From contig CAJVZZ010000015.1 in assembly GCA_913020435.1 (NCBI GenBank), positions 1-64,000 on the forward strand: a stretch of 64,000 nucleotides of DNA. The letters run 5' to 3'. Below, in pieces: positions 1-45,484 of the stretch (the first letter of the stretch is position 1; the number at the start of each line of letters is the position of its first letter). The notes under the pieces are model-generated. The model was given only the letters and a program-made list of their open reading frames with translations, searched no databases and was not told the origin of the DNA. Made by a program: the position numbers and the translations under genes. This DNA comes from an uncultured Flavobacteriales bacterium. Lineage in GTDB: Bacteria > Bacteroidota > Bacteroidia > Flavobacteriales_G > Salibacteraceae.

Positions 1-753
1 ATTGCTCATGAAATCAATAACCCTATAAACTTTGTTTCCTCCAACATTAACCCATTGAGAAGGGATATAAAAGACCTTTTAGAAGTTATTGAAAAATACA
101 GAAGTATTGTTTCAACTGATGAATTTAAGGCAAAACGAAAAGAGGTTGAGGTGTTTTTGGAAGAGATTGACTTTGGCTATGTAATCAAAGAAATTGATCA
201 ACTAGTAAATGGCATTCAAGAAGGTGCAGACAGAACTGCTGAAATAGTGAAAGGACTCAAGAACTTTAGCAGATTAGATGAGGTTGAATCTAAGAGTGCA
301 AACTTGCACGAGGGTATCGACTCTACCCTATTAATAATTTTGAGTGGATCAAAAGTAAAAGTAGAAATTGTAAAAGATTACGATGAAAACATTATAGAGA
401 TAGAATGTTTTCCGGGAAAATTAAATCAAGTATTTTCTAATATTCTATCCAATGGATTTCAAGCGATGGAGAATAATCTACCTGAGAATCCTCCCTCAAT
501 GAAAATAACAACCAAGCAAATGAAAGAGCACGTTTCTTTGTCTTTTAAAGACAATGGCCCTGGAATACCAGCTAAAACAATTGAAAAAATTTATGAGCCT
601 TTTTTCACAACAAAAGAGGTTGGTGAAGGAACAGGACTTGGTCTTTCGATTGTATTTTCTATCATTGAATCTCATAAAGGAAAAATTGAAGTAAATTCTG
701 AGCCACCGAATGGCACAGAATTTTTGATTACACTTCCTAAATCCATTAATTAA
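1..753 (+). CDS. Sensor histidine kinase, C-terminal part (cut by left edge)
   Basis: This is the catalytic half of a membrane or cytosolic sensor kinase that autophosphorylates on histidine. Reading frame 1 is open from the first base, so the gene starts outside the window. The visible 250 codons begin inside the H-box (AHEINNP, phospho-acceptor His near codon 3). They continue through the N-box (QVFSNILSNGFQAM), the G1 box (DNGPGIP), the F-box (YEPFFTTK) and the G2 box (GTGLGLSIV), so both the dimerisation and the ATPase domain are complete. The sensory domain is not visible. The stop overlaps the next start by one base (TAATG), so it is probably translated together with the receiver-kinase hybrid downstream. 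The family is certain; the signal sensed is unknown. Confidence 0.93.
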   Translation: MAHEINNPINFVSSNINPLRRDIKDLLEVIEKYRSIVSTDEFKAKRKEVEVFLEEIDFGYVIKEIDQLVNGIQEGADRTAEIVKGLKNFSRLDEVESKSANLHEGIDSTLLIILSGSKVKVEIVKDYDENIIEIECFPGKLNQVFSNILSNGFQAMENNLPENPPSMKITTKQMKEHVSLSFKDNGPGIPAKTIEKIYEPFFTTKEVGEGTGLGLSIVFSIIESHKGKIEVNSEPPNGTEFLITLPKSIN

Positions 754-1874
754 TGAAAATTACAGAAAACAATGCTCTTGTTAAACGAGTTCTTTTTGTC
801 GACGACAATGAGAATAATTTAAATTCATTTCGGGCAAATTTTCGATTTGATTATGAAGTTTATACAGCATTGACTTCAAAAGAAGGTTATCAATTAATAG
901 AGGAACACGACATACCCGTAATATTATCAGATTATAAAATGCCTGAAGAAAACGGAGTTTTATTTCTTGAAAAAGTGAAGGAAAATTTTCCTTTGACAGT
1001 TAGGGTCATGCTCACTGGTCATGCTGATATGCCCACCATTGTAGATGCAATTAATAGAGGAGGAATATTTCGATTTTTACCAAAACCATGGAATGAAGAG
1101 GTTTTAAGGAACTCGATTGATAATGCTTTTGACATTTATTTTACAAAGAGTCTTCTTGAGAAAAAAAATGAAGAATTAAAAAAAGCTTACGTCGAGTTAG
1201 ATAAATTGGTGTTTAGCACAGCTCATGATATTACAGGGCCTCTTTCAAATATAATAGGGTTAATTACATTGCTGAGAATGGAGGAAAGTGACCCTGAAGA
1301 GTACATAGATTTAATAGAGTTCTCAGCTAAAAAGCTAATGGCAACAACGCGTGATGTGCTAAGCTTTCATCGCAATAAAAGAACAGGTTTAGACTTACGA
1401 AATATCCGATTTAAACAATTGATTAAATCGGTTAGGGACGAGCATCAGTATTTTGAAGAATCAATTGATATAAAGTATTCAGTAGAAATAAATCAAGATG
1501 AAAAGTTTGTTTCTGATAAATCACGAATTCGGTTTATCCTAAATAATTTGCTGTCCAATGCTATTAAATATCAAGACAAACATAAAGTAGAGCAAACGAT
1601 TAAAATTTCAGCACATGTAGATTCTTCTGAGTTGAAATTAATAGTAGAGGACAATGGAATTGGGATTGAAAAAGAGCAACAAGCGCAAATTTTCAACATT
1701 TACTATAGAGGAACTCAACTCAGCAACGGTACAGGAATAGGTCTATACATTGTAAAAGAGGCTGTTGACCTACTAAAAGGAACTATAGAACTCAGCTCTT
1801 CCCTAGGTCGTGGAACAAAATTTACAATTACAATTCCAAATTTGGTTGGGTTTGAAGTTAAAGAGGATAACTAA
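753..1874 (+). CDS. Hybrid response regulator / histidine kinase (REC-HisKA-HATPase)
   Basis: The 373-residue protein carries an N-terminal receiver domain (residues about 12-125) with acidic pair D17/D18, phospho-acceptor D60 in LSDYKMP, T88 and K111. A helical linker follows, then a histidine kinase core with H158 (STAHDITGPLSN), an N-box (NNLLSNAIKYQ), a G1 box (EDNGIGI) and a G2 box (GTGIGLYIV). It has no membrane segment and no DNA-binding output, so it is a cytosolic relay kinase that probably receives phosphate from another kinase and passes it on. It is translationally coupled to the upstream kinase through a TAATG overlap. The receiver-first architecture is common in Bacteroidota phosphorelays. 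The final target is not in the window. Confidence 0.9.
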   Translation: MKITENNALVKRVLFVDDNENNLNSFRANFRFDYEVYTALTSKEGYQLIEEHDIPVILSDYKMPEENGVLFLEKVKENFPLTVRVMLTGHADMPTIVDAINRGGIFRFLPKPWNEEVLRNSIDNAFDIYFTKSLLEKKNEELKKAYVELDKLVFSTAHDITGPLSNIIGLITLLRMEESDPEEYIDLIEFSAKKLMATTRDVLSFHRNKRTGLDLRNIRFKQLIKSVRDEHQYFEESIDIKYSVEINQDEKFVSDKSRIRFILNNLLSNAIKYQDKHKVEQTIKISAHVDSSELKLIVEDNGIGIEKEQQAQIFNIYYRGTQLSNGTGIGLYIVKEAVDLLKGTIELSSSLGRGTKFTITIPNLVGFEVKEDN

Positions 1875-1891
1875 TTCCGCGTTGCCTTAGT

Positions 1892-1899
1892 TAAATTTG
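1892..1899 (+). promoter_or_regulatory. -7 promoter element of uvrC, directly before the start codon
   Basis: TAAATTTG matches the Bacteroidota -7 consensus TAnnTTTG. It ends 4 nt before the GTG start at 1904, so transcription would start at or next to the start codon, giving a leaderless mRNA. I see no TTG at the usual -33 spacing, so the call rests on the -7 element and on the identical placement at 4293, 8092 and 19787. Confidence 0.5.
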
Positions 1900-1903
1900 C
1901 AAA

Positions 1904-3700
1904 GTGCCCGAAGTAACTCCATACATAAAGCAAATACTTACCACATTGCCCAAATCGCCTGGGATTTATCAGTATTTTGATAAAGAAGGGGTAATTCTGT
2001 ATGTGGGAAAAGCTAAAATCCTTAAGAATAGAGTCAATAGTTACTTCACGAGCAAACATGAAGATAGCCCCAAAACGAGAATTCTCGTCAGCAAAATATC
2101 GGATATTAAATTCATTATTGCTGATTCAGAATACGACGCGCTGATACTTGAAAATACTCTAATAAAAAAATACAAACCGCGCTACAATGTGTTGTTGCGT
2201 GATGATAAAACCTACCCTTGGATTTGTATTAAAAACGAACGGTTTCCACGAGTTTTTTATACAAGAAAACTGATAAAGGATGGTTCTGAATACTATGGAC
2301 CTTATACCTCTTTTAGAACGATGCGGATTGTTTTGGAGTTTGCAAATAAGCTTTACAAATTGCGTACTTGTAATTTCAATTTGTCCGAAGAAAATATTGA
2401 AGCCAAAAAGTTTCGAGTATGCCTTGAATATCATATCAAGAATTGCGAAGGACCATGCGAGGAATTGCAAACGGATGAAGATTATCAAAAAGGAATTGCT
2501 CATATCCGTAAGATTCTAAAGGGAAGTATTATTGATGTAATTCGTGACCTAAAGCTGACAATGCAAGCATCAGCAGAAGTTTTGAAATTTGAAGAGGCAC
2601 AAGATGCCAAGGAGCAAATTAAATTACTCGAAGACTATCAAATGCGTTCTACTGTTGTCCATCCTAGCATAAACAACGTAGATGTGTTTTCCATTTTGAG
2701 TGATGATAAATTTGCCTATGTTAATTTTATGAAAATGGCTAATGGTGCTATTATTCAGGCACATACTGTAGAGGTAAAGAAAAAGTTAGAAGAAACGGAG
2801 GAGGATATTTTGTCTTCAGTCATCTTTGAAATTCGCAATAGGTTTAATAGTACTTCAAAAGAGGTTTTCACATCTATTCCTATGGCTTTGGAAATTCCCG
2901 AAATCAAGTTGCACAACCCAATTCGAGGGGATAAAAAGCAGTTGATCGATATGTCTTTGCGAAACGTAAAATATTTTATGCGCGATCGTCAACTGCAGCA
3001 AGAAAAAGTGGATCCAGATCGTCATAAGAATCGAATTTTAGGTACGATTCAAAAAGATTTGAGAATGAAAGTTTTACCGACCCACATTGAGTGTTTCGAT
3101 AATTCGAATATTCAAGGAGCGTTTCCGGTGGCGGCCTGCGTGGTTTTTAAAGATGCTAAACCCGCTAAAAAAGATTACCGTCATTTTAACATCAAAACGG
3201 TTGTCGGTCCAGATGACTTTGCCAGCATGAAAGAAGTGGTTTACCGCCGCTACAAGCGCTTATTGGAAGAGAAGCAACCACTTCCTCAGTTAGTAATTGT
3301 AGATGGGGGCAAAGGGCAGCTTAGTTCTGCAGTGGAAAGTTTACAAAAACTGGATCTTATGGGGAAAATTGTCATAGTCGGGATTGCAAAAAGGCTGGAA
3401 GAAATCTTTTTTCCTGGAGATCCATATCCATTATATATCGATAAAAGATCAGAAAGCCTTAAGTTAATGCAGCACCTGAGGAATGAGGCTCACCGATTTG
3501 GAATTACGCACCATCGCAACCAGCGATCAAAAGGAACCATTAAGTCTGGACTAACCGAAATAGAAGGAATAGGTTCAATTACACAGGAAAAATTACTTAA
3601 AAAATTTCGTTCCTTCAAACGAATTAAGGAAGCTAGCGACGAACAATTGAAAGAGGTTTTAACTTTAAAACAATTACAAGCTCTAAGAAACTTTATTTAA
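1904..3700 (+). CDS. uvrC: Excinuclease ABC subunit C
   Basis: UvrC makes both incisions flanking a DNA lesion during nucleotide excision repair, acting in the cytoplasm with UvrB. The 598-residue product has the usual family length. An N-terminal GIY-YIG nuclease domain (GIY at residues 20-22, YVG at 33-35) makes the 3' cut. It is followed by a UVR motif that contacts UvrB (around residue 230), the UvrC RNase H-like domain for the 5' cut (IECFDNSN, VDGGKGQL) and a C-terminal helix-hairpin-helix (TEIEGIGS). The start is GTG: the only other in-frame start-like codon before an upstream stop (TAA at 1892) is ATT, and a -7 element sits 4 nt before it. The gene appears monocistronic. Confidence 0.97.
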   Translation: MPEVTPYIKQILTTLPKSPGIYQYFDKEGVILYVGKAKILKNRVNSYFTSKHEDSPKTRILVSKISDIKFIIADSEYDALILENTLIKKYKPRYNVLLRDDKTYPWICIKNERFPRVFYTRKLIKDGSEYYGPYTSFRTMRIVLEFANKLYKLRTCNFNLSEENIEAKKFRVCLEYHIKNCEGPCEELQTDEDYQKGIAHIRKILKGSIIDVIRDLKLTMQASAEVLKFEEAQDAKEQIKLLEDYQMRSTVVHPSINNVDVFSILSDDKFAYVNFMKMANGAIIQAHTVEVKKKLEETEEDILSSVIFEIRNRFNSTSKEVFTSIPMALEIPEIKLHNPIRGDKKQLIDMSLRNVKYFMRDRQLQQEKVDPDRHKNRILGTIQKDLRMKVLPTHIECFDNSNIQGAFPVAACVVFKDAKPAKKDYRHFNIKTVVGPDDFASMKEVVYRRYKRLLEEKQPLPQLVIVDGGKGQLSSAVESLQKLDLMGKIVIVGIAKRLEEIFFPGDPYPLYIDKRSESLKLMQHLRNEAHRFGITHHRNQRSKGTIKSGLTEIEGIGSITQEKLLKKFRSFKRIKEASDEQLKEVLTLKQLQALRNFI

Positions 3701-8103: not shown

Positions 8104-8676
8104 ATGTTTCAAGTAGGAAAAGCACTCATTGCAGAAGACGTATTAAAAGAAGAATTTGTATGTAACCTATCGGCTTGTCGCGGCGCTTGCTGCGTTGAAG
8201 GCGATGGCGGAGCGCCATTAGAGAAGGAAGAACTAGAGATAATCGAGAAAAACCTTGATGCCATTAAACCTTTCTTACGAAAAGAAGGGTTGGAGGTAAT
8301 TGACAAAGAAGGCTTTTGGTATACCGATACTGATGGGGAAAAACTAACCAGTTTAGTTAATGATAAGGAATGCGCTTTTGTCACTTATGATGAACGCGGA
8401 ATCACTAAATGTGGAATTGAAGAAGCGCATTTGGATGGTAAAACTGATTTCAAAAAGCCGATTTCGTGCCACTTGTATCCAATTCGGCTGAAGGAATATG
8501 AAAATTTTGTTGCTGTAAATTATCATCAATGGGAAATATGTGAAGCGGCATGTTTTAATGGTAAGGAATTGAATGTTGAGGTTTACAAATTTTTGAAAGA
8601 ACCTCTTATTCGAAAATTTGGAGAAGAATGGTATAATGAACTGGCTGAGGTAGCCAAGCAGTGGAAAACGGCTTAA
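8104..8676 (+). CDS. DUF3109 family cysteine-rich protein
   Basis: This 190-residue cytosolic protein belongs to the DUF3109 family, related to the YkgJ type of putative metal-binding proteins. Cysteine motifs are spread along it: CNLSACRGACC near the N-terminus (residues 20-30), a cysteine in KECAF, one in TKCGIE, one in ISCHLYPIR and two in WEICEAACF near residue 155. Such patterns bind zinc or an iron-sulfur cluster in relatives, but the function is not established. The gene is divergent from tilS with only 33 nt between the two starts, a spacing that leaves room for little more than overlapping promoters. Confidence 0.9.
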   Translation: MFQVGKALIAEDVLKEEFVCNLSACRGACCVEGDGGAPLEKEELEIIEKNLDAIKPFLRKEGLEVIDKEGFWYTDTDGEKLTSLVNDKECAFVTYDERGITKCGIEEAHLDGKTDFKKPISCHLYPIRLKEYENFVAVNYHQWEICEAACFNGKELNVEVYKFLKEPLIRKFGEEWYNELAEVAKQWKTA

Positions 8677-12918: not shown

Positions 12919-12935
12919 CTAAAATCAGTTTATTG

Positions 12936-12969
12936 AAACCCCTGCTAATGAAAATTAGGAGGGGTTTTT
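12936..12969 (+). terminator. Strong Rho-independent terminator of nrdBA
   Basis: AAACCCCT (12936-12943) pairs with AGGGGTTT (12960-12967). An inner stem CTAAT / ATTAG (12945-12949, 12954-12958) is capped by a GAAA tetraloop, and a run of T to 12969 follows. Confidence 0.9.
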
Positions 12970-13031
12970 GTTTTCAATTCTATTCGTTAATCACATTAAA
13001 TTATGTTTGCCTTCTAACAACAATGCACTGC

Positions 13032-14172
13032 ATGAAATTCAAAAAAATCACGTGCTTATCTCTTCTAACGATTGTTGCGCTTCTGGCTTGTAAAAAAGAA
13101 GAAATTGAAGCACCTGCTTTGCCAGAAAATAGCACCGCAGTAGGTTTTGAAAAGTATTTGACCATTCAAAAAAGGGCTCAAAATGTATCGGCCTTAGCTA
13201 CACTTATTTTTAAAGAAGATCAGGTATTGTTTGAGAATTATCAGGATGAGTCGGACATTGAAAAAGATATTACCCTAACTAAAGACCACGTTTTTTTATT
13301 GGCTTCGATTTCTAAAACTATTACTGCTTTATTCCAATTGTATGATCAGGGTAAATTTAAGTTGGACTATAATATCAATGATTACTTGAATTTTAAAGCT
13401 GTGGTTCCCGACTACAGTAAGGCTATAACTTTTAAAATGTTACTTACTCAGACTTCTGGAATTACTGATGGAAAAGTGCTTAACAATGAAGATTATTATG
13501 GAAAAGATAGCCCCGTTCCATTGGATCAATTTTTAGAAAATTACCTAACTGTTGACGGTGATTATTACAACGAAAAACAAAATTTCCATGATTTTGAACC
13601 TGGAAGTGACCATGAATATTCTAATGTTGGAAATGCACTTATCGCTGCATTAGTAGAAGATATAACAGGAATTGATTTTAATGAATACTGCAAGAAAAAC
13701 ATTTTTCAACCTTTAAAAATGCACGATACATTTTGGCGACTAGATGAGGTTACTAAAATTATTGTTCAACCTTACAATTATGCTAAACGAGATTATGAAC
13801 TCATCAGTCATTATACCTTCACAGATTGCCCAAATGGTAGTTTACGGTCTAGCGTAAATGACATGTTCAACTTTTTAAGTGCATTGGTTCAGGAAGGGAC
13901 CTATGACGGTCACGAGTTATTGAAAACAGAAACAGTAGCCGTGATGATTAATCCTCAAGCTACAAGTTTGGATGCGACAATGGGTTTTACACTTGTTTCA
14001 AATAGATAAAACCAATAATATTTGGGGACATGAATGCTGAGAACAGTGTTTAGCAACAATTATGGATTATAATCTAACGATCAAAGTTGGAGCTCTAAAT
14101 TCCTGTAATCAAGGAGAAGTAAGTTTGGATGCTGTATTAATTGAGGCATATAAAATTGGGCTAACACTATAA
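13032..14172 (+). pseudogene. Decayed serine hydrolase (class C beta-lactamase-like) lipoprotein
   Basis: The intact-looking part (13032-14009) encodes a lipoprotein signal (LLTIVALLAC, lipid Cys about residue 18), the SxxK motif SISK and the YxN motif YSN of penicillin-binding-protein-like serine hydrolases. It stops at 14009, before the third active-site motif. Shifted by one base, the sequence continues with DKTNNIWGHE, a TGC and TGA codon where HEGG is expected, then TIMDYNL, CNQGEVSLDAV and IEAYKIGLTL, ending with TAA at 14170-14172. So a frameshift near 14000 and a TGA at 14038-14040 break the gene at the GHxGG motif. The start is the ATG at 13032; an ATG at 13023 is also possible. A -7 element TATGTTTG is at 13002-13009. 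The shortened product should be inactive. Confidence 0.8.
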
Positions 14173-19801: not shown

Positions 19802-20896
19802 TTGTGCATTTTGGCTAAAGGAAAAAGCAGTTCTCCAGTAAGAAAACTATTAAGTCCACAGCGGATTTTTATTCCTGTTGTTATTGGATTGGCCGTTGCG
19901 TTATGGTTGCTTTGGGATGAGTTTAGTGCCGACATGTTCAGTCATGTCACGTGGGGATGGTCAACAGCATTTTGGCTCTTTTGTGCACTTATAATGGTTG
20001 CAACCCGCGACCTTGGTTACATGTACCGGATTCGGGTACTGACCGATAATGAAATAAAATGGCGTAACAGTTTTGATGTTATTATGCTATGGGAGTTTGC
20101 ATCTGCCATTAGCCCAAGTGTAGTAGGAGGTTCAGCCATTGCTTTGTTTATTGTCAATCGTGAAGGGATAAGCTTAGGAAGAAGTACCGCAGTTGTAATG
20201 GTTACGGCGTTCTTAGACGAACTCTTTTACATTCTAATGGTGCCTTTGGTGTTGCTAGTAGTTGGAACAAGCGATTTATTTCCACCCAATTTGCAAAAAA
20301 TAATGTTCGGGGTGAGCTTAGGAGCAAAACAAATATTCTATGTGGGATACGGGTTTATAGTAGTACTAACGACTTTGATTTTGACTGCAATTTTCTTCGC
20401 ACCCAAGGCCACTAAGAAGGTTTTGGTGAAGGTTACTTTTCTTAATTTTCTAAAATTCTGGAGAGCAGAGGCTATTCAGACAGGTAATGATATCATCACT
20501 ACTAGCAAAGAGCTTCGAGGTAAACCATGGGTGTTTTGGGGAAAAGCTTTCGGCGCTACTTTGTTTAGTTGGACCGCTCGTTTTTGGGTAGTAAACTTTT
20601 TGATTCTTGCTTTTGGAACTTTAGCATTTAATGAGCATATGATGGTTTACGCTCGCCAACTGGTTATGTGGGTTATCATGCTTATAAGCCCGACGCCAGG
20701 TGGAACAGGAGTTGCGGAATATATGTTTGGTGAATTCCTCGGACTATACATCGTTGATGGATTCTCAGGAGTTATTGCTTTGTTATGGAGATTGTTCACC
20801 TACTATCCGTATTTGTTCGTAGGAATTATTGTGCTCCCTGGATGGATAAGAAGAGTGTACTTAAAACGAAGGTTGATTACTTTTAAGAAAGTATAA
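19802..20896 (+). CDS. UPF0104 / lysylphosphatidylglycerol synthase-like membrane protein
   Basis: The 364-residue protein has about eight membrane helices and the pattern of the UPF0104/YbhN family related to the flippase domain of lysylphosphatidylglycerol synthases. Typical blocks are WEFASAISPSVVGGSAIAL (about 98-116), TAFLDELFYILMVP, SPTPGGTGVAEY (about 298-309) and LLWRLFTYYPYL. Members are thought to move lipids or lipid-linked molecules across the inner membrane. There is no soluble aminoacyltransferase domain, so it should not make lysyl-lipid itself. The start is uncertain: TTG at 19802 or the in-frame TTG at 19811. A strong terminator follows. Confidence 0.87.
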   Translation: MCILAKGKSSSPVRKLLSPQRIFIPVVIGLAVALWLLWDEFSADMFSHVTWGWSTAFWLFCALIMVATRDLGYMYRIRVLTDNEIKWRNSFDVIMLWEFASAISPSVVGGSAIALFIVNREGISLGRSTAVVMVTAFLDELFYILMVPLVLLVVGTSDLFPPNLQKIMFGVSLGAKQIFYVGYGFIVVLTTLILTAIFFAPKATKKVLVKVTFLNFLKFWRAEAIQTGNDIITTSKELRGKPWVFWGKAFGATLFSWTARFWVVNFLILAFGTLAFNEHMMVYARQLVMWVIMLISPTPGGTGVAEYMFGEFLGLYIVDGFSGVIALLWRLFTYYPYLFVGIIVLPGWIRRVYLKRRLITFKKV

Positions 20897-21396: not shown

Positions 21397-22032
21397 TTAG
21401 GTTATCTTAAAAATCACAGACGTTTCTATGGTAGTATCTTTTACAGCTGAAGATTCGGAGTAAGCCAATAACTCGAAGGGTACGAAATCTATAAACTCTT
21501 GTAAATCAGTGAAATACTCATTTCCATATTTTTGAGAGCCTTTATAAAAAACTTGGTTTACAATTAAATATTTGCCTTTAGAGGATTCGCTTAACGCCTT
21601 AAATAGTGCTTTAAGATTGGGTAAGATATACCAAACTACTTCACTCAGTATAATTGCTTCTCTAGTTTTAAAAGAGTCAATATTCTTAGTAATATCTGCC
21701 AGCTCAAAATCTAAATGAGGGAATTTTTCTTTTGCTTTAGAGACAGCAGTTGCAGAGATATCGATGCTTTTCGGGACAATATTGGTTTCTTGATATATCC
21801 ACTCTGCATAATATCCTAACCCACAGCCAACTTCAAGAATACTTGTAATTCCAAAATTTTTGATGTGAATTATTCCCGCATTTCTAGAATATCTATTGGG
21901 CTGAATTGACTGCATCCATGGATCATTGACATTTTGATACATAGTTTCAAAATCACCAATGAATTTTCCATTTTTGATTACGTAATCGTGGTAATTTGAA
22001 TTTTCTGCTTTTTTAGATTTGGGAGTACTCAT
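21397..22032 (-). CDS. Class I SAM-dependent methyltransferase
   Basis: The 211-residue protein has a Rossmann-type methyltransferase core: motif I ILEVGCGLGYYAEW (about 75-88), the acidic end of strand 2 in PKSIDISATAV, motif II in FELADITKN and motif IV in ILSEVVWYILP. The substrate is unknown. The sequence resembles small NodS-like methyltransferases that modify sugars or lipids, but this is weak. It is a single gene with the 9-bp tandem repeat directly after its stop. No promoter element was recognised upstream. Confidence 0.85.
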   Translation of the reverse strand: MSTPKSKKAENSNYHDYVIKNGKFIGDFETMYQNVNDPWMQSIQPNRYSRNAGIIHIKNFGITSILEVGCGLGYYAEWIYQETNIVPKSIDISATAVSKAKEKFPHLDFELADITKNIDSFKTREAIILSEVVWYILPNLKALFKALSESSKGKYLIVNQVFYKGSQKYGNEYFTDLQEFIDFVPFELLAYSESSAVKDTTIETSVIFKIT

Positions 22033-32984: not shown

Positions 32985-33692
32985 TTGGAAACCGTTGCCG
33001 TTGAAAGACTGGGCTTAATTGACTTTCAAGAAAGCTGGGATTATCAAGAGCAATTGTGTAAGGCCAATGTTGAGGTAAAACTCAACCAGAGAAAGCATCC
33101 CGAATTAGCAGGTTTTACAAAACATCACTTGCTATTTTGTGAGCATCCATTGGTGTACACGCTTGGTAAAAGTGGAGATGAATCTAACCTCCTTGCAGAG
33201 CAAGATACTTTAAACGAATTAGGAATTACCTATCATAAAATAAACCGGGGTGGAGATATCACCCACCATGGTCCCGGGCAATTAGTGGCCTATCCAATAT
33301 TAGATCTAGAAAAGTTTTTTACTGACATCCATAAGTACCTGCGGTATCTTGAGGAAGCGACTATTCTAACGCTCAAAGACTACGGAATTACTGCTGGCCG
33401 ATACAAAGGTTACACAGGAGTTTGGCTGGATGCGGATGACCCTATTAAAGCTAGAAAGATTTGTGCAATGGGTATAAGATGTTCGCGTTGGATAACCATG
33501 CATGGACTAGCACTGAATGTCAATAATGATCTATCGTACTTTAATAATATAATTCCTTGTGGAATTGAAGATAAGCAAGTAACCTCTATTGAAAAGGAGC
33601 TCGGGAGAAAGGTTGATATTGCTGAAGTATCGAATAAATTACTACTTCACTTATCAAAGCTTTTTAACTTCGAGGCAAAGGAAATTCAATGA
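32985..33692 (+). CDS. lipB: Lipoyl(octanoyl) transferase
   Basis: LipB transfers octanoate from acyl carrier protein to the lipoyl domain of dehydrogenase E2 subunits; SucB at 55524 would be a client. The 235 residues show the family signature GGDITHHGPGQLVAYPIL and the catalytic-region KICAMGIRCSRWITMHG, with the active cysteine in NNIIPCGIEDK. The start is TTG at 32985, 4 nt after the isomerase stop. The start is not marked by a ribosome site. The stop overlaps the hydrolase start by 4 nt. Confidence 0.95.
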   Translation: METVAVERLGLIDFQESWDYQEQLCKANVEVKLNQRKHPELAGFTKHHLLFCEHPLVYTLGKSGDESNLLAEQDTLNELGITYHKINRGGDITHHGPGQLVAYPILDLEKFFTDIHKYLRYLEEATILTLKDYGITAGRYKGYTGVWLDADDPIKARKICAMGIRCSRWITMHGLALNVNNDLSYFNNIIPCGIEDKQVTSIEKELGRKVDIAEVSNKLLLHLSKLFNFEAKEIQ

Positions 33693-34852
33693 AGGTTGCA
33701 AAAAGAATAGGCGTTCTGGTTACTCTAGGAATATTGTTTCACCTAGCATTAGTTGTTACAGGTAATATTCATTTGTACAATACATTAGAAAACACGCTAT
33801 TCAAAGGTCGTCTTGGACCTGCAATTGAAGAATTCGAAATATTTTCAAATCGCAAGGTGGCAGTTGGTTTGCATGAAGCTTGGCTTGTTTCTAATAATGT
33901 GAATCAAGTTGACCTGTCAGAAGAGACAGCCGCTAAATTCAAGGAGCTTGGTACTGTTGCGTTTCTTGTAATTCATAAAGATTCCATTGTAAAAGAACAT
34001 TACTGGGATGGCTATTCTGAGAACAGTTTAAGCAACTCATTTTCAATGGCTAAAAGTATTTTGAATATTGCTATTGGAAGCTTAATTCGAGAAGGAAAAA
34101 TTAAATCTATAGACGACCCTATCGCCCTCTATTTACCCGAATTTGATGTTTCTAAATATCCAGAATTATCTATTCGTGATCTTCTTCAAATGAGTTCTGG
34201 AATCAACTTTGATGAAAACTACATCAATCCATTTGCCTATCCCGCAAAGGCAAATTATGGAGATGGTCTTGTTCAACTCACCTATTCTTATGCAGCATCA
34301 GAGCAACCGTCTCAAAAATTTGAATACCGCTCAGGCAATAGTCAGCTATTGAGTTTTATTATTGCTAAGGTAAGTGGAATGACTACTTCTGATTATGTTT
34401 CTGAGAAAATCTGGAAACGGATTGGTGCAAAAAACGAAGCCTTATGGAGTTTAGATAAACTTGAAGGAAAGGAAAAAGGGTTTTGTTGTTTCAATAGTAA
34501 TGCTCGAGATTTTGCAAGAATTGGCAAGTTGTTCTTACAAAAGGGGATATGGAATAGTGACACTATTGTTGATCCTGAATTTGTAAAAGTTTCTCTGACT
34601 GCAGCATCAGTGTTGGATGTGGATGGAGTTAGCTGCAAACGATATGGACTGCATTGGTGGTTGCATGAATATGAAGGTAAGGAAGTTTTTTATGCTCGAG
34701 GAATCTTAGGCCAATACATTGCCGTGATGCCTGAGCTGGACTTAATTGTTGTTCGGTTAGGCCATAAAAGAATTAAACCTAAAGGAATTGAGTCGCCACC
34801 TGATTTTGACTTGTACTTACAGGAAGCAATTTTGACAGCAACTATTCGCTAA
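33689..34852 (+). CDS. Serine hydrolase, class C beta-lactamase/esterase fold
   Basis: The 387-residue protein has an N-terminal hydrophobic segment (residues 8-25), then a beta-lactamase-like transpeptidase fold. SMAK is the SxxK motif (catalytic Ser near residue 128), and YRSGN is the second motif with Tyr near 212. The third region reads FYARGILGQYIAV, where the usual KTG/HxG is replaced by a GxxGQ pattern like that of the nylon-oligomer hydrolase (NylB) group. It may hydrolyse amides or esters; a beta-lactamase role is not supported. It overlaps lipB by 4 nt, and its end overlaps the convergent S41 protease by 4 nt. Confidence 0.85.
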   Translation: MKVAKRIGVLVTLGILFHLALVVTGNIHLYNTLENTLFKGRLGPAIEEFEIFSNRKVAVGLHEAWLVSNNVNQVDLSEETAAKFKELGTVAFLVIHKDSIVKEHYWDGYSENSLSNSFSMAKSILNIAIGSLIREGKIKSIDDPIALYLPEFDVSKYPELSIRDLLQMSSGINFDENYINPFAYPAKANYGDGLVQLTYSYAASEQPSQKFEYRSGNSQLLSFIIAKVSGMTTSDYVSEKIWKRIGAKNEALWSLDKLEGKEKGFCCFNSNARDFARIGKLFLQKGIWNSDTIVDPEFVKVSLTAASVLDVDGVSCKRYGLHWWLHEYEGKEVFYARGILGQYIAVMPELDLIVVRLGHKRIKPKGIESPPDFDLYLQEAILTATIR

Positions 34853-37725: not shown

Positions 37726-37755
37726 AAAAGGAGATATTTATAGCTCCTTTTTTTG
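37726..37755 (+). terminator. Terminator between queA and ispD
   Basis: AAAAGGAG (37726-37733) pairs with CTCCTTTT (37744-37751), a 10-nt loop between, then a T run. The ispD ATG at 37762 starts only a few bases after it. Confidence 0.8.
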
Positions 37756-37761
37756 TTTCTA

Positions 37762-38445
37762 ATGAAAAGTAAAAAGTTCGCCATAATCGTCGCAGGTGGT
37801 TCAGGTTCTAGAATGCAATCTGAAACACCGAAGCAGTTTTTACCGCTGGGTGAAAAAACGATTATTGAACATACTATTCAGAAATTTCTAGATCACGATG
37901 CTGAGCTACAATTAGTTGTCGTAATTCCCGAAGCTCATTTAGATTTATGGAAATCTCTTTCTAAGAAGATTACGAAAAATGAGCGACTGACGCAGGCTTT
38001 TGGTGGAGCAACACGCTATCATTCAGTATCAAATGGATTAAAATGTATCGAAGCAAATGAAGGCGACTTGGTTGCCATTCACGACGCAGTTCGGCCTTTG
38101 TTTTCAAATGATTTAATCGAGCGCTGCTTTGTCGCTGCTTCGCAAGATGGCAATGCAATTCCAGCTACAGCCCTTGTCGAAACAATCAGAAAATTAGTGC
38201 CTGCCGCTAAGTCCTCGGAGTGGGTGGATAGAGGGGAATATAGGGCCATACAAACACCGCAGACTTTTCAGTACGATATACTAAAGGACGCTTATAATCA
38301 ACTATTTAGCGATACCTTTACCGATGATGCAAGCGTTGTAGAGGCAATGGGAGTAAAAGTGAATTTAGTTGAAGGAGAGCGCAACAACATAAAAATTACT
38401 ACACAAGAAGATTTAAAATTGGCAAGACTGCTCATACTATCATGA
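37762..38445 (+). CDS. ispD: 2-C-methyl-D-erythritol 4-phosphate cytidylyltransferase
   Basis: IspD activates methylerythritol phosphate with CTP in the MEP pathway, so this organism makes isoprenoids by that route. The 227 residues show the N-terminal AGGSGSRM with TPKQFLPLG, the HDAVRPLF substrate motif, ATALVETI, RAIQTPQTF and DDASVVEAMG, all standard for the family. The ATG at 37762 is preferred over an in-frame TTG at 37753 inside the terminator. The stop overlaps rlmN by 4 nt. Confidence 0.96.
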   Translation: MKSKKFAIIVAGGSGSRMQSETPKQFLPLGEKTIIEHTIQKFLDHDAELQLVVVIPEAHLDLWKSLSKKITKNERLTQAFGGATRYHSVSNGLKCIEANEGDLVAIHDAVRPLFSNDLIERCFVAASQDGNAIPATALVETIRKLVPAAKSSEWVDRGEYRAIQTPQTFQYDILKDAYNQLFSDTFTDDASVVEAMGVKVNLVEGERNNIKITTQEDLKLARLLILS

Positions 38446-39497
38446 CGGAATCAAAAACAGATATTCGCCTTTTTAACTTAGGGCAGCTACAAGCTCAATT
38501 GGGAAAGTACAATTGGCCAAAATTTAGGGCAAAGCAGGTTTACCATTGGCTTTGGAAAAAGCACGTGCGTAGTTTTGAGGAAATGAATAACCTGCCTAAG
38601 GATATAATTGAAGGACTGGAAAATAACTTTGAGATCCTTCCAATTAGAGTTAAAGATGAGCAGGTGAGTGATGACGGTACGATTAAGTCTGCCTTTGAAA
38701 CAGCCGATAAAAAAATTGTAGAAGGCGTTCTTATTCCAACCGAAAAACGAATGACTGCATGTATCTCCTCTCAGATTGGTTGCAGCTTAGCTTGTAGTTT
38801 TTGTGCTACAGGTAAATTGAAACGATTAAGAAACTTAACTGCTTCTGAGATTGTAGATCAAGTGGTAGAAATAAACAACCAAGCAACGACTAATTATCAA
38901 AAATCGCTTACCAATATTGTACTCATGGGAATGGGCGAGCCGCTCTTGAATTACAGCGAAGTAATGAAGGGAATTGATATGATTACCAGCGAAGATGGTT
39001 TGGGAATGTCTCCAAGGAGAATCACGCTTTCAACAGCTGGTATTTCTAAAATGATTCGTAAAATGGGCGATGATATGTCAAGGATAAATCTGGCATTATC
39101 ATTACATGCCGCAAACGATGAAAAGCGTAGTAAAATAATGGCCATAAACGACCAAAACAACTTGGACGAACTGGCCGAAGCTATGATTTACTATTATTCG
39201 AAAACCAAACAAATGTTGACCTTTGAGTATATCATATTCAAAGATTTTAACGACAGTTTGGACGATGCTAGAGACTTAGCGCGCTTTTGCAAACGGGTAC
39301 CCTCAAAAGTGAATATCATTGAATACAACTCAACTGATGACGAACAGTTTGCTAAGTCTCCAGAAGATCGAGTTGATGCTTTTGTGGAGTTTTTGACCAA
39401 ACAAAAAATTGTTGCCAAAGTGCGGAGAAGCCGAGGCCAGGATATTGACGCTGCTTGTGGGCAGTTGGCCAATAAGAATAAGGCGGAATTGAAGTAG
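38442..39497 (+). CDS. rlmN: Dual-specificity RNA methyltransferase RlmN
   Basis: RlmN is a radical-SAM enzyme that methylates C2 of A2503 in 23S rRNA and A37 of some tRNAs. The 351-residue protein has the radical-SAM cluster motif GCSLACSFCATG (three cysteines, residues about 112-119) and the SAM-binding MGMGEPLLNY block. The conserved methyl-transfer cysteine C339 is in AACGQL near the C-terminus; an upstream cysteine in MTACISSQIG is typical. The first codons overlap ispD by 4 nt (ATGA), so both are translated from one mRNA. Confidence 0.97.
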   Translation: MTESKTDIRLFNLGQLQAQLGKYNWPKFRAKQVYHWLWKKHVRSFEEMNNLPKDIIEGLENNFEILPIRVKDEQVSDDGTIKSAFETADKKIVEGVLIPTEKRMTACISSQIGCSLACSFCATGKLKRLRNLTASEIVDQVVEINNQATTNYQKSLTNIVLMGMGEPLLNYSEVMKGIDMITSEDGLGMSPRRITLSTAGISKMIRKMGDDMSRINLALSLHAANDEKRSKIMAINDQNNLDELAEAMIYYYSKTKQMLTFEYIIFKDFNDSLDDARDLARFCKRVPSKVNIIEYNSTDDEQFAKSPEDRVDAFVEFLTKQKIVAKVRRSRGQDIDAACGQLANKNKAELK

Positions 39498-39705
39498 AGT
39501 AAAGTGTTCTATTCCATGGAATCAAGTGCTATCACAAGATTATATATTGTGGTCTAATCAGTTGAGCAAGAGGTAAAAAAATACAGTTTGTGTTTATTAT
39601 TAATGAGCCGTAAATGCAATTATTTTACAAAGAGATTTAATCTCGCGGCAACTGGGTGTTCATTTTAATATATTTGATTTCTTCCTAATCAAAAACTAAA
39701 AGAAA
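39498..39705. other. Gap after rlmN with a 12-bp palindrome
   Basis: Nothing coding is seen in this 208-nt stretch. ATTCCATGGAAT at 39511-39522 is a perfect palindrome. CACAA and TTGTG lie 9 nt apart near 39533-39551. A TATATTTG element (39669-39676) precedes the next gene. Confidence 0.5.
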
Positions 39706-40257
39706 ATGAATTCAATTATTCGTGTTGCTATTCTTGTCGTGGTATTTTTTACTTTATCAAGCGGCGGATTTAAGAAAGCTAAAAATATTGAACTGCCTCC
39801 CCCAGGCATGTCAATTATTTATGGCAAGCTAACAGGTATGGGAAGAGCAGCATATAAGGTAGTTTGGCTTAGGGATCTAGAGACAAAAAAAGTATTTAAG
39901 TATTGTGCAAAATGTACAACTCTGAATAGCACAGAGGAGGAGGTATATGCGTTCATTGTACCTCCTTCGAAATATGAGTTGTATGCCTATGTGAGTTTGT
40001 TTGGAGGGAATTCGCAGTCACTTCATTTTTGGAGTAAGAATAAGGCAAATACAAAAGGCTTCAGTAAGAAAAAAGCAGAACCGCTTAAACGATCGGTTTT
40101 AAAAATAGAAGAGAACAAAACGTACTATTTAGGAGAATGGGATTGTGAAAAAGGTGCTCCAAGAATTGTAATGGATAAGGAAGCTACAGACTCCGATATT
40201 TCTGGGAAATTCCCAAGTCTTAAAACCGAGAATGCAATAACGCTAATGCCGGAATAG
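39706..40257 (+). CDS. Hypothetical exported protein
   Basis: The 183-residue product has a signal peptide (residues 1-21, FFTLSSGGF). The mature part contains a short carboxypeptidase-regulatory-like beta pattern (SIIYGKLTGMGRAAYKVVWL), two cysteines in YCAKCTT and one in EWDCEKG, and a polar end. I do not recognise a named family. A TATATTTG -7 element is at 39669-39676. It is followed 37 nt later by aat, whose expression may depend on its own promoter or on read-through. Confidence 0.68.
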   Translation: MNSIIRVAILVVVFFTLSSGGFKKAKNIELPPPGMSIIYGKLTGMGRAAYKVVWLRDLETKKVFKYCAKCTTLNSTEEEVYAFIVPPSKYELYAYVSLFGGNSQSLHFWSKNKANTKGFSKKKAEPLKRSVLKIEENKTYYLGEWDCEKGAPRIVMDKEATDSDISGKFPSLKTENAITLMPE

Positions 40258-40294
40258 TGAATATAACTTCACCTACGAGGAATTTTGAGCGCAC

Positions 40295-40918
40295 ATGCAA
40301 ATCTTAAATCAAAAAATCACATTTCCAGATGTAAGCCAAGCCTCAGCAGATGGCTTGTTGGCTATTGGAGGTGATTTATCTCCAGAGCGATTAATTGAAG
40401 CTTATTCAAAAGGTATATTTCCTTGGTTCAACGATGAAGACCCTATTATGTGGTGGTCACCAGATCCTAGATTTGTAATCTTTCCTGAAGAATTGAAAGT
40501 TTCTAAAAGCATGAAACAGCTGTTTAAAAAGAAACCATTTCGAGTTACACAAAATCAAAATTTTGAAGCAGTTATCCGAAATTGTTCAGCGGCAAAACGT
40601 CACGATCAAGATGGAACTTGGATTATAGAACCTATGATTGATGCCTACCTGAATTTGCACAAATTAGGCTACGCCATTTCTGTTGAGGTGTGGCAGGATG
40701 ATGAGCTTGTTGGAGGACTCTATGGTTTGGATTTAGGAAATAATGTGTTTTGCGGAGAAAGTATGTTTGCTAAAGTCAGTAATGCTAGCAAGTATGGTTT
40801 TATAGATTTTATTCATAAATCGACTTACAAGCTAATTGACTGCCAGCTGCATACCAAACATTTGGAAAGTTTAGGCGGAAAAAACATCCCTAGAGCTGAG
40901 TTTATTGGGTATTTGTAG
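40295..40918 (+). CDS. aat: Leucyl/phenylalanyl-tRNA--protein transferase
   Basis: Aat adds leucine or phenylalanine to proteins with N-terminal arginine or lysine, marking them for ClpAP degradation (N-degron pathway). The 207 residues show the family motifs LLAIGGDLSPERLIEAY and GIFPWFNDEDPIMWWSPDPR, the catalytic region SVEVWQDDELVGGLYG, then VFCGESMF and LHTKHLESLGG. Length is typical. The start ATG at 40295 has no ribosome site. Confidence 0.95.
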   Translation: MQILNQKITFPDVSQASADGLLAIGGDLSPERLIEAYSKGIFPWFNDEDPIMWWSPDPRFVIFPEELKVSKSMKQLFKKKPFRVTQNQNFEAVIRNCSAAKRHDQDGTWIIEPMIDAYLNLHKLGYAISVEVWQDDELVGGLYGLDLGNNVFCGESMFAKVSNASKYGFIDFIHKSTYKLIDCQLHTKHLESLGGKNIPRAEFIGYL

Positions 40919-41022
40919 CAGCAGTATCAGTGCGTTAGAAAAGAAAATCGAGTATAATTCCCAAAAAAACATAACCTCTTTAATAATCACAACATAACCG
41001 TTCGTCAAATTGTATTAACTAA

Positions 41023-41030
41023 TACTTTTG
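41023..41030 (+). promoter_or_regulatory. Candidate -7 element of the polyprenyl synthase gene
   Basis: TACTTTTG fits TAnnTTTG, with TTC (41001-41003) 19 nt upstream in place of TTG. The TTG start at 41047 is 16 nt downstream. Confidence 0.45.
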
Positions 41031-41046
41031 AGTAATATTTGAACGA

Positions 41047-42021
41047 TTGACGGTAGTTGAAGAAATAAAGGAACCCATTAAAGCAGAAATGCTTGTATTC
41101 GAAGATCGTTTTCGGTCTTCTATGAAGAGTACTGTTCCATTGCTCGATAAAATCACACACTATATTATCAAACGTAAAGGGAAGCAAATGCGTCCTATGT
41201 TCGTTTTTTTATCGGCTAAAGTTTTTGGTGAACTGAACGATTCATCTTACCATGCAGCTTCATTAATTGAGTTGTTGCACACCGCAACATTGGTGCATGA
41301 TGATGTAGTGGACGATGCACACAAACGAAGAGGCTTCTTTTCGCTTAATGCACTTTGGAAAAACAAGATTGCCGTTTTGGTAGGAGATTATTTATTGTCT
41401 ACAGGTTTGTTATTGGCAATAGATAACGGCGAGTTTCAAATGCTACAGATAGTATCTAAAGCAGTTAAAGAAATGAGCGAAGGCGAGTTACTCCAAATGG
41501 AAAAAGCTCGAACCTTAAATATGGATGAAGCGATTTATTACGATATCATTCGTGGAAAAACGGCAACGTTGATAGCTGCTTGTTGTGCTGCTGGAGCAGC
41601 TACGGTTACCAAAAATGAAGAAAACATTGATGCCATGCACGAATTTGGAATTAATGTCGGAATAGCTTTTCAGATAAAAGATGATTTATTCGATTACGGT
41701 TATGGTCAAGACATTGGCAAACCAGTAGGAATAGACATTAAAGAAAAGAAAACCACCTTGCCTTTAATCTATGCTTTGAATAAAACGAGCTGGTTGAAGA
41801 AACGACAAATGATCAATATTGTAAAGAATCACAATACCAATCGCAAAAAAGTAGATGAGCTTTTTGCTTTTGTGAAAGAGCAAGGCGGAATAGCTTATGC
41901 CGAAAAGGTAATGTTGGAATACACTCAAAAGGCCAAAGATATTTTATTGAAAATGCCAGAAAATGCTGCTCGAGCTAGTCTGATGCAAATGGTTGATTAT
42001 ACGATTACTCGAAAGAAATAA
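41047..42021 (+). CDS. Polyprenyl diphosphate synthase
   Basis: This 324-residue trans-prenyltransferase builds a long isoprenoid chain, most probably the side chain of a respiratory quinone. The first aspartate-rich motif is HDDVVDDA (near residue 93) and the second is KDDLFDYG (near 213). Conserved KGKQMRP and GDYLLSTG blocks are present. The chain length cannot be fixed from sequence. The start is TTG; a -7 element lies 16 nt upstream. IspD at 37762 belongs to the same overall isoprenoid route. Confidence 0.93.
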   Translation: MTVVEEIKEPIKAEMLVFEDRFRSSMKSTVPLLDKITHYIIKRKGKQMRPMFVFLSAKVFGELNDSSYHAASLIELLHTATLVHDDVVDDAHKRRGFFSLNALWKNKIAVLVGDYLLSTGLLLAIDNGEFQMLQIVSKAVKEMSEGELLQMEKARTLNMDEAIYYDIIRGKTATLIAACCAAGAATVTKNEENIDAMHEFGINVGIAFQIKDDLFDYGYGQDIGKPVGIDIKEKKTTLPLIYALNKTSWLKKRQMINIVKNHNTNRKKVDELFAFVKEQGGIAYAEKVMLEYTQKAKDILLKMPENAARASLMQMVDYTITRKK

Positions 42022-42061
42022 ATCGGTACTCTTTTCCTAACCATCAACCCTTTCCTCGTCA

Positions 42062-42080
42062 CCTTCCCCAGAAGGGAAGG
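42062..42080. repeat. Inverted repeat between convergent genes
   Basis: CCTTCCC (42062-42068) pairs with GGGAAGG (42074-42080) over CAGAA. It lies between the convergent prenyl synthase and gcdH genes. No T run follows, so terminator function is uncertain. Confidence 0.5.
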
Positions 42081-42145
42081 ATAGAGTAAATACAATATTG
42101 ATAACCCGTTTCATTCTCTTCAACTCGAGAGCAAGATTGTTATCC

Positions 42146-43324
42146 CTACTTAAAGGCAGGAATTCCAGTTACATCAGCACCAGTAATCAACAAGTGAATA
42201 TCGTGCGTTCCTTCGTAAGTAATTACCGACTCTAGGTTCGCCATGTGGCGCATACAAGGATATTCGTTGGTAATCCCCATTGCACCATGAATTTGACGAG
42301 ATTCTCTAGCGATGTTTACAGCCATTTCGACGTTGTTACGTTTAGCCATAGAAATCTGAGCAGTAGTTGCTCTTCCTTCGTTTCTTAATACCCCCAAACG
42401 ATAAGTCAGTAATTGTGCTTTCGTGATTTCGGTAATCATTTCAGCCAATTTCTTTTGAATCAATTGAAAACCACCAATCGGTTTGTCAAACTGGATACGC
42501 TCTTTAGAATATCTTAATGCAGAATCGTAACAATCTAATGCTGCTCCAATTGCGCCCCAAGCTATTCCATATCTAGCTGAATCCAAGCAACTCATTGGTG
42601 CTCCTAATCCAGATTTTCCAGGTAGCAAATTCTCTTTAGGAATTTTTACGTTGTCGAAGATTAACTCTCCCGTTGATGAAGCACGTAAAGAGTGTTTTCC
42701 GTGCATTTCTGGAGTAGAAAACCCTTCCATTCCACGTTCTACGATTAAACCGTGTATACGTCCAGATTCGTCTTTGGCCCAAACAACTGCAACTTGTGCA
42801 AATGGCGCATTTGAAATCCACATTTTGGCACCATTCAACAAATAATGATCTCCTTGGTCGGAAAAGTTTGTAATCATACCCGATGGGTTAGAGCCGTAAT
42901 CAGGCTCTGTAAGTCCAAAACAACCTAACCACTCACCTGAGGCTAGTTTTGGTAAATATTTTTGGCGTTGTTCTTCAGTTCCATATTTCCAGATAGGGTA
43001 CATAACCAATGAACTTTGCACAGAAGCAGTAGACCGAACACCAGAATCACAGCGCTCTAGTTCCTGCATCAATAATCCATAAGAGATTTGATCGAGCCCT
43101 GCACCACCGTACTCTTCTGGAATGTATGGCCCAAAAGCACCGATTGCTCCTAGTCCCGGAACAATTTGATTTGGGAATTCACCTTTTTCGTAATACTCTT
43201 CGATAATAGGAGAAACCTCTTGTTTTAACCATTCTCTAGCTGCCGAACGAATCATGATTTGTTCGTCGCTTAAAAACTCATCCATTAGATAATAATCGTG
43301 TGCTTCAAATCGATCTGTGCCCAT
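42146..43324 (-). CDS. gcdH: Glutaryl-CoA dehydrogenase
   Basis: This FAD enzyme oxidises and decarboxylates glutaryl-CoA to crotonyl-CoA in lysine and tryptophan breakdown. The 392-residue protein is an acyl-CoA dehydrogenase with the glutaryl-specific pattern around SGVRSTASVQSSL (about 93-105) and the catalytic glutamate in ITYEGTHDIH near the C-terminus. GCFGLTEPDYGSNP binds FAD. It is a single gene with its own consensus promoter, and no electron-transfer partner lies next to it. Confidence 0.93.
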   Translation of the reverse strand: MGTDRFEAHDYYLMDEFLSDEQIMIRSAAREWLKQEVSPIIEEYYEKGEFPNQIVPGLGAIGAFGPYIPEEYGGAGLDQISYGLLMQELERCDSGVRSTASVQSSLVMYPIWKYGTEEQRQKYLPKLASGEWLGCFGLTEPDYGSNPSGMITNFSDQGDHYLLNGAKMWISNAPFAQVAVVWAKDESGRIHGLIVERGMEGFSTPEMHGKHSLRASSTGELIFDNVKIPKENLLPGKSGLGAPMSCLDSARYGIAWGAIGAALDCYDSALRYSKERIQFDKPIGGFQLIQKKLAEMITEITKAQLLTYRLGVLRNEGRATTAQISMAKRNNVEMAVNIARESRQIHGAMGITNEYPCMRHMANLESVITYEGTHDIHLLITGADVTGIPAFK

Positions 43325-43347
43325 CTTTTCCTTTTTAATTAAGATTA

Positions 43348-43379
43348 CAAAAGTACTATATTGCTAATTATTAACTCAA
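43348..43379 (-). promoter_or_regulatory. Consensus promoter of gcdH
   Basis: On the minus strand TTG (43377-43379), a 21-nt spacer and TACTTTTG (43348-43355) are present. The ATG at 43324 is 23 nt downstream. The gap to the divergent cytochrome gene at 43384 is only 59 nt. Confidence 0.6.
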
Positions 43380-43383
43380 AAAT

Positions 43384-43755
43384 ATGCTTAAAACTAAATT
43401 TGCAATTGTTCTTGTACTTTTTGCATTGATTGTTGTACAATCTTGTAAAAAAGAGGTGTTTGACGTCTCAGAACCAGAAGAAATCGTTGTACCGGTGGAT
43501 GAGTGTCTAGACGTTTTTTACCAGAACGGTGCAAAATCGATTGTTGAGGCGAAATGTGTTACTTGTCATATCGCAGGAGGATCAGGTCCTGGCGATTATA
43601 CTAAAACCGATGTTTTGATTGCTAATCTTGCTAAAATAAAGCAAAGAGCAGTCGTTGATAAGACCATGCCCTCAGCCTTTGCACCACAATTAATTGATGC
43701 CGAAATTGAAACGCTAAGAAATTGGATCGATTGTGGTGGACAATTTGGGCCTTAG
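43384..43755 (+). CDS. c-type cytochrome lipoprotein, first domain of a shortened gene
   Basis: The 123-residue product has a lipoprotein signal (LIVVQSC, Cys about 21) and one class I-like heme-c domain. Heme is attached at CVTCH (C58, C61, H62), and the likely axial ligand is M95 in KTMP. The sequence ends DCGGQFGP and then TAG at 43753. The same frame continues past the TAG as AGDITHPAPRH, followed by broken sequence of a second heme domain, so this may be the remaining half of a longer di-heme protein. It is the first gene of a run with YceI and DUF5777 genes and lies divergent to gcdH. Confidence 0.8.
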   Translation: MLKTKFAIVLVLFALIVVQSCKKEVFDVSEPEEIVVPVDECLDVFYQNGAKSIVEAKCVTCHIAGGSGPGDYTKTDVLIANLAKIKQRAVVDKTMPSAFAPQLIDAEIETLRNWIDCGGQFGP

Positions 43756-44013
43756 GCTGGAGATATAACACATCCAGCGCCAAGACATTAAGTCTATTAT
43801 TACTGCAAAGTGCGTAGCGTGTCAAATATCGGGTGGAACGGGGCCGACTGATCTTTCTACAACGGAAGAGGTTAAAAAGAGAGTAAACAATGGTAGATTA
43901 AAAGTGGTGGTTATTGATCAAAAAATCAATGCCTAAGACTGGATCAAATCTGGTAACGCTAAGAACTAGATAAAATTTTAAAACGGCTTAACGACGGAGC
44001 AAATTTCGAATAA
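43756..44013 (+). pseudogene. Decayed second cytochrome c domain
   Basis: Three frames together spell one heme-c domain. Frame A reads DIKSIITAKCVACQ, GGTGPTDLSTTEEVKKRV and NNGRLK. Frame B reads MPKTGSNLVTLRT. Frame C reads DKILKRLNDGANFE and ends with TAA at 44011-44013. The heme motif is CVACQ in place of CVACH, so the axial histidine is lost as well. The stop is 2 nt before the YceI start, so the domain probably once ended the cytochrome gene whose TAG is at 43753-43755. Confidence 0.75.
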
Positions 44014-44015
44014 TT

Positions 44016-44564
44016 ATGAAAAAGATTTATACTGTATTAGCAGCGATTTTATTAGGAATAGGAGCGCTACCCGCACAAGATATTTTTATGGTGGATTCAA
44101 GTTATGTTCACTTTTTCTCAGAAGCAACGTTAGAAAATATTGAAGCTGAGAACAATAAGGCAAAAGGATTAATAAATAGAGCAAATAGTAAAGTAGCTTT
44201 TCTAATTCCGATAAAAAGCTTTGAATTCGATAAAGAGCTTATGAAAGAGCACTTCAATGAGAATTACATGGAATCCGAAAAGTTCAAAGCTGCAACATTT
44301 AAAGGTCAGATTAATGAGAAAATTAACTGGAAAAAAGAAGGATCTTATATTGTAACAGTCACAGGAATTTTGAACGTACACGGTGTTAAAAAAAGCAGAA
44401 CGATTAAAGGTAAGCTGATGGTAAAGGAGAGTAGAATTCGAGTTCAAACAAAATTCGAATTGAAATTAGTTGATCATGACATTGAAATCCCAACAGTTGT
44501 TTTTCAAAAAATTGCTGAGGTAATAGACGTAACAGTTGATTTGCAGTTTTCACTTAAAAAATAA
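44016..44564 (+). CDS. YceI family exported protein
   Basis: The 182-residue product has a signal peptide (residues 1-20, GIGALPAQ) and a YceI lipocalin-like domain: VDSSYVHFFSEATLENIEAE, the KVAFLIPIKSFEFDKELM strand block, KAATFKGQI and LNVHGVKKSRTIKG. YceI proteins bind polyprenyl lipids in a beta-barrel pocket; their cellular role is poorly understood. The start is 2 nt after the end of the decayed cytochrome domain and 9 nt separate it from the DUF5777 gene, so the three form one operon-like unit. Confidence 0.92.
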   Translation: MKKIYTVLAAILLGIGALPAQDIFMVDSSYVHFFSEATLENIEAENNKAKGLINRANSKVAFLIPIKSFEFDKELMKEHFNENYMESEKFKAATFKGQINEKINWKKEGSYIVTVTGILNVHGVKKSRTIKGKLMVKESRIRVQTKFELKLVDHDIEIPTVVFQKIAEVIDVTVDLQFSLKK

Positions 44565-44572
44565 AGGTCATA

Positions 44573-45484
44573 ATGAAACACTCACTTATAGTTCTTGCCT
44601 TATTAGTTGTAGCGTTTAACCTTACCGCACAAGACGATTTATTGGATATGTTGGAAGCTGAAGAGTCGACAAAAAATTACAAAGTTGGCCCAACATGGAA
44701 AACCATGAAGCTGGTAAACTTACATTCAACCTCAATGGTTAAGAAGAATGGATTGGACTTTAGAGTTACGCATCGCTTTGGTAGTATTGGAGAAAAGAGT
44801 GGAGGTGGGGTGCATAATCTTTACGGATTGGATATTTCTGACGATATCCGAATTTCATTTGATTATGGAATTACAGAGAACTTACAAGTTGGAATTGGGC
44901 GAAGTAAATACTCGGAATTGATTGATGCTTCAATAAAATATAAGGTGCTAGCTCAAAAAGAGCGCAAAGCCCCTTTAACATTAGTAGTGCTAGGGAATAT
45001 CGCAACAACTCCTCAACAGGCGGTTGATGCGCGTTACGATGACTGGCTCAATACCTTGTCCTATTTCTCTCAAGTAATTATTGCGCGAAAATTTGGAGAC
45101 CGCTTTTCTTTTGAGTTTGCACCTAGTTTGCTCTACAGAAATTTGGTTTTAAAAACTACAGACGCTGATGGTGTTAACGCGGAAGATGAAAATGTAAATA
45201 TTTCTCTTGGATTTGGAGGTCGGTTTATGATCACAAAGCGCGTTGGAATTATTATGGATTACATGTATACGTTTTCTGAGTATCGATCTAATTATAGACC
45301 GATTAACTATTACGATCCATTTGGTATTGGTGTAGAAATTGAAACGGGTGGTCACGTGTTTCACATCACTATGACAAATGCCGCAGGAATTGTAGAGAAT
45401 AATTACATTCCAAATACCATTGCAAACTGGGGAGATGGAGGCATAAAATTAGGCTTTAATATTTCTAGAGTTTTTCAGTTTTAG
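44573..45484 (+). CDS. DUF5777 family beta-barrel outer-membrane protein
   Basis: The 303-residue protein has a signal peptide (residues 1-19, AFNLTAQ) and a mature region rich in alternating strands with aromatic ends. Examples are LDFRVTHRFGSIGEKSGGG and DDIRISFDYGITENLQVGIG, ending in the terminal strand GFNISRVFQF with a C-terminal phenylalanine. This fits the DUF5777 family of predicted outer-membrane barrels that is found beside YceI and cytochrome genes in Bacteroidota. No biochemical role is known to me. It lies 9 nt after the YceI gene. Confidence 0.88.
   Translation: MKHSLIVLALLVVAFNLTAQDDLLDMLEAEESTKNYKVGPTWKTMKLVNLHSTSMVKKNGLDFRVTHRFGSIGEKSGGGVHNLYGLDISDDIRISFDYGITENLQVGIGRSKYSELIDASIKYKVLAQKERKAPLTLVVLGNIATTPQQAVDARYDDWLNTLSYFSQVIIARKFGDRFSFEFAPSLLYRNLVLKTTDADGVNAEDENVNISLGFGGRFMITKRVGIIMDYMYTFSEYRSNYRPINYYDPFGIGVEIETGGHVFHITMTNAAGIVENNYIPNTIANWGDGGIKLGFNISRVFQF

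Follow-up and report, generated by a model that had tools for sequence, protein, structure and literature searches.

A di-heme cytochrome c, a putative lipoprotein, encoded in this stretch of a marine Bacteroidota genome has very probably been cut to a mono-heme form in the common ancestor shared with the sister species G001, and the orphaned half of its gene is decaying in place. The features concerned, numbered along the window (the whole 64,000-nucleotide stretch of DNA that was analysed), are the following.

43384..43755, + strand: putative mono-heme cytochrome c lipoprotein gene, 123 aa, the surviving first domain (sequence, Pfam, dN/dS)
43753..43755, + strand: in-frame TAG, common to the sister species G001 (alignment with G001; frame open in G002 and G003)
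43756..43783, + strand: decayed inter-domain linker, within which the reading frame shifts (translations, G001 alignment)
43784..44013, + strand: what is left of the second heme domain, spread over three frames, DIKSIITAKCVACQ... / SMPKTGSNLVTL / ELDKILKRLNDGANFE-stop (translations, profiles, dN/dS)
43811..43825, + strand: dead heme site TGC GTA GCG TGT CAA = CVACQ (sequence, G001 alignment)
43920..43925, + strand: A6 run with one A more than in G001, a frameshift private to this genome (alignment)
44016..44564, + strand: YceI-family protein, the intact next gene (PF04264 2.8e-13; dN/dS 0.16)
44573..45484, + strand: DUF5777 beta-barrel protein, the intact third gene (PF19089 5.3e-83; dN/dS 0.12)

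The first-pass annotation had read a heme-c domain in three frames beyond the TAG, and all of the peptides that it quoted are present. Translation in the 43757 frame gives DIKSIITAKCVACQISGGTGP, the 43758 frame gives SMPKTGSNLVTL, and the 43756 frame gives ELDKILKRLNDGANFE followed by TAA at 44011–44013; DIKSIITAKCVACQISGGTGPTDLSTTEEVKKRVNNGRLKVVVIDQ, SMPKTGSNLVTL and ELDKILKRLNDGANFE-stop each occupy a different frame. With the intact G002 second domain as reference, the scores of the three frames are 43, 102 and 32, and none of 500 base shuffles exceeded 41. The remnant is also found by tblastn, both with the protein's own first domain as query (E 2.6e-5) and with the G002 protein (E 5.8e-6). 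When the peptide is joined across the frames, PF13442 reaches only 12.3 bits. With its heme histidine replaced by glutamine (CxxCH to CVACQ, as had been proposed), its three frames and its stops, the remnant does not present the CxxCH in one open frame that defines a class I-like c-type cytochrome.

The lesions are more numerous than the two frameshifts claimed at first. There are three frame changes: (i) between the TAG and DIKS, (ii) at the A6 run 43920–43925 and (iii) between 43931 and 43963. An extra stop, TAA at 43766–43768, lies in the domain-2 frame and is without counterpart in G001; with the TAG, this makes at least two early stops. The peptide AGDITHPAPRH, earlier taken to join the two domains by read-through of the TAG, does exist, but read-through alone would not join them, since the linker also shifts frame.

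That the gene once encoded a di-heme protein is borne out by its relatives. Three congeners were compared, all with YceI (94, 70 and 56% identity). In G002 (Crocinitomicaceae bacterium SAT3021, L061) and G003 (L062/L010) an intact two-heme protein occupies the same operon position, before YceI and DUF5777. It shares the lipoprotein start MLK..SCKKEVFD with the gene described here, its first domain is 55% (G002) and 49% (G003) identical to ours, and its second domain is homologous to the remnant. In these relatives a single open frame of about 213–222 aa carries two heme sites, in contrast to the stop, three frame changes and lost histidine seen here. The distance from the end of the two-heme protein to the YceI match is 3 nt in G002 and 30 nt in G003, where the true gap is smaller because the matched part starts within the YceI protein. 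Elsewhere in the family, there are two hemes in G008 and G014, three in G005 and one in G011. A search for full-length orthologues, suggested along with the original reading, thus found a second heme-binding domain in the expected place in G002, G003, G008 and G014, with 3 to 30 nt between its end and the YceI match. The cytochrome end adjoins the YceI start in the intact relatives, whereas 260 untranslated bases separate the two genes here.

Heme-domain number varies in this family, since the gene before YceI in G005 (L012) is a three-heme version of the lipoprotein. In Bacteroidota, YceI is commonly preceded by a mono-heme gene. In the G011 type (L009/L063) the single heme domain of the cytochrome ends at the same W-I-D-x-G region and YceI comes next; an unsystematic look downstream noticed no second-domain remnant there.

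The sister species places the truncation in time. G001 is an independent Fram Strait MAG whose YceI is 94% identical, and in alignment it shares both the TAG and the frame offset with this genome. An orthologue ending at this TAG with unrelated sequence downstream, which would have spoken against a lost domain, was not seen; the G001 downstream sequence is related and differently broken. Its heme site reads CVS-stop-H, the second heme cysteine having become TGA, a methionine has changed to isoleucine, the A-run lacks the extra A and further indels lie near the C-terminus. The domain-2 frame of G001 is open back across the TAG.

Substitution rates indicate that the two halves of the ancestral gene now evolve differently. 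The neutral rate was taken as 0.142 per site, the synonymous difference from G001 pooled over 17 genes from YceI downstream. In the 45 codons of the remnant that are free of interruptions, dN/dS is 1.14, with 4/9/7 changes at the three codon positions, and the nonsynonymous rate of 0.145 is indistinguishable from neutral (p 0.89), an estimate drawn from those 45 codons. The lesion itself is common to a single sister genome. YceI and DUF5777, with dN/dS of 0.16 and 0.12, are under strong constraint, in keeping with the proposal of gene decay inside an otherwise intact operon. Together, the intact orthologous domain, the disabling lesions and the neutral evolution characterize a domain-level pseudogene. 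Operon dS is 0.14–0.17, the background of most flanking genes and of most of the window, so vertical descent suffices, and the shared stop fits descent from a common ancestor. Horizontal spread of the broken allele was considered and rejected for the same reason.

The surviving product of 43384–43755 has a lipobox-like VVQSC near its N-terminus (LVVQSCKKE, read by eye), a CVTCH heme site and a methionine in DKTMP. Its match to Pfam Cytochrome_CBB3 (PF13442; E 4e-5, 24.3 bits) falls slightly short of the curated cut-off, 27 bits, and alignment shows clear homology to relatives with canonical heme sites. The domain is complete, because the stop sits just past the W-I-D-C-G end, where mono-heme relatives also end. 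Its nonsynonymous rate of 0.065 is under half of neutral (p 4e-5), and the mono-heme protein remains under purifying selection. The short protein probably binds heme and works. At a dN/dS of 0.49 against G001, the gene is less constrained than its neighbours and so may itself be losing function.

Could the interruptions be errors of sequencing or assembly in one intact di-heme gene? One lesion does lie in a homopolymer, the A6 run, a typical error site. The TAG and frame offset recur, however, in the independent G001 assembly, and on this comparison assembly error can be taken as excluded for the shared stop, a judgement that applies to that stop and not separately to each lesion private to one genome. 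The private lesions include heme-ligand substitutions, divergence across the entire stretch is at the neutral rate and the neighbouring genes are clean, all of which makes an error origin extremely unlikely. A longer di-heme protein might alternatively be made by programmed recoding at CCT TAG G, whether through read-through of the stop or a +1 frameshift, and the open domain-2 frame across the TAG in G001, with its superficially recodable Cys-Val-Ser-TGA-His, is what such a mechanism would use. Later frame changes and stops occur in each species at different places, however, heme ligands are gone (the histidine in one species, the methionine in the other) and, at a dN/dS of 1.14, the downstream frame is not conserved as coding in the way that a programmed frameshift would show. 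We regard the probability of recoding as negligible. Recoding of the G001 heme-site TGA as selenocysteine or otherwise was likewise rejected, given the later stops and the loss of the methionine.

It is also conceivable that the remnant descends from a tandem copy of the mono-heme gene and not from the second half of a di-heme one. The remnant does resemble domain 1 (47.4 bits, in addition to the tblastn match), and the frequency of mono-heme genes before YceI in Bacteroidota would suit such an origin. Against profiles built from the first and second domains of intact relatives, with the remnant peptides manually spliced where the frame shifts, the remnant of this genome nevertheless scores 65.4 bits with the domain-2 profile, and that of G001 scores 37.2 bits with domain 2 versus 28.4 with domain 1, so that in both species it is closer to second domains. 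A tandem copy is very improbable because of this likeness and because the remnant is without a start or signal peptide of its own; its distance from YceI, moreover, equals that of the second domains of intact relatives.

Truncation of a di-heme lipoprotein would then have proceeded as follows. The ancestral gene would have encoded a di-heme c-type cytochrome lipoprotein just upstream of the YceI and DUF5777 barrel genes. Domain 2 would have been lost before the split from G001 through a stop and/or a linker frame shift where domain 1 ends, and this truncation probably preceded the other lesions. The remaining domain, with its own signal, lipobox-like start, CxxCH and methionine, would have persisted as a selected mono-heme protein, while the untranslated second half has drifted neutrally and collected separate lesions in each species. 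To judge from the protein types, the operon (heme lipoprotein, YceI and DUF5777 barrel) may serve electron transfer at the cell envelope; a literature search returned no mention of DUF5777, and the role of the operon is not described there. A second intact di-heme copy was sought elsewhere in this genome and in G001 (83% complete), and none was found.

The result is a clean, dated case of a multidomain redox protein becoming one domain smaller, with a stop that predates a species split at a dS of about 0.15. Selection still acts on the retained half, and the orphaned one stays in the operon, undeleted. Pseudogenized multiheme cytochromes, for which a literature search returned Pelobacter carbinolicus (PMC3543383), lose heme-protein function through stops and frameshifts, a process of the same general kind. 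The present case differs from pseudogenized multiheme cytochromes generally in that one domain is lost and the other kept under selection. This is ordinary domain-level pseudogenization, unusually cleanly documented, and it alters no general view. For annotation, the protein is to be described as mono-heme here and as di-heme elsewhere in the genus.

Within the remnant, 38 nt (43775–43812) are identical in both species, and random scatter of the changes gives a slightly shorter run (P about 0.03). It is very unlikely that this part is retained for a role in YceI expression, be it as untranslated leader or as regulatory RNA. A search of 43300–44100 on the + strand for promoters, terminators and RNA families found nothing beyond chance. 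On the - strand, the remnant contains one sigma-70-like match of 11/12, but such matches are no more numerous than expected by chance, and promoters in Bacteroidota are of another kind.

Other parts of the window differ more strongly from G001. From 37753 to 43324, dS is 0.37–0.63 versus about 0.15 in most of the window, with an abrupt end at the cytochrome gene; this is probably a tract recombined from a more distant relative. Further high-dS genes lie at 753–3700, 8104–8676, 19802–20896 and 33689–34852 (dS 1.5). The ORFs at 39706–40257 and 21397–22032, inside or next to high-divergence tracts, have no match in the syntenic region of G001, and the ORF at 12933–14009 shows fast protein divergence from that species (65% identity, dN/dS 0.72). 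Elsewhere in the genome, beyond the window, there is another, short YceI-like match (44% over 59 residues) at G000:C20:12863–13042.
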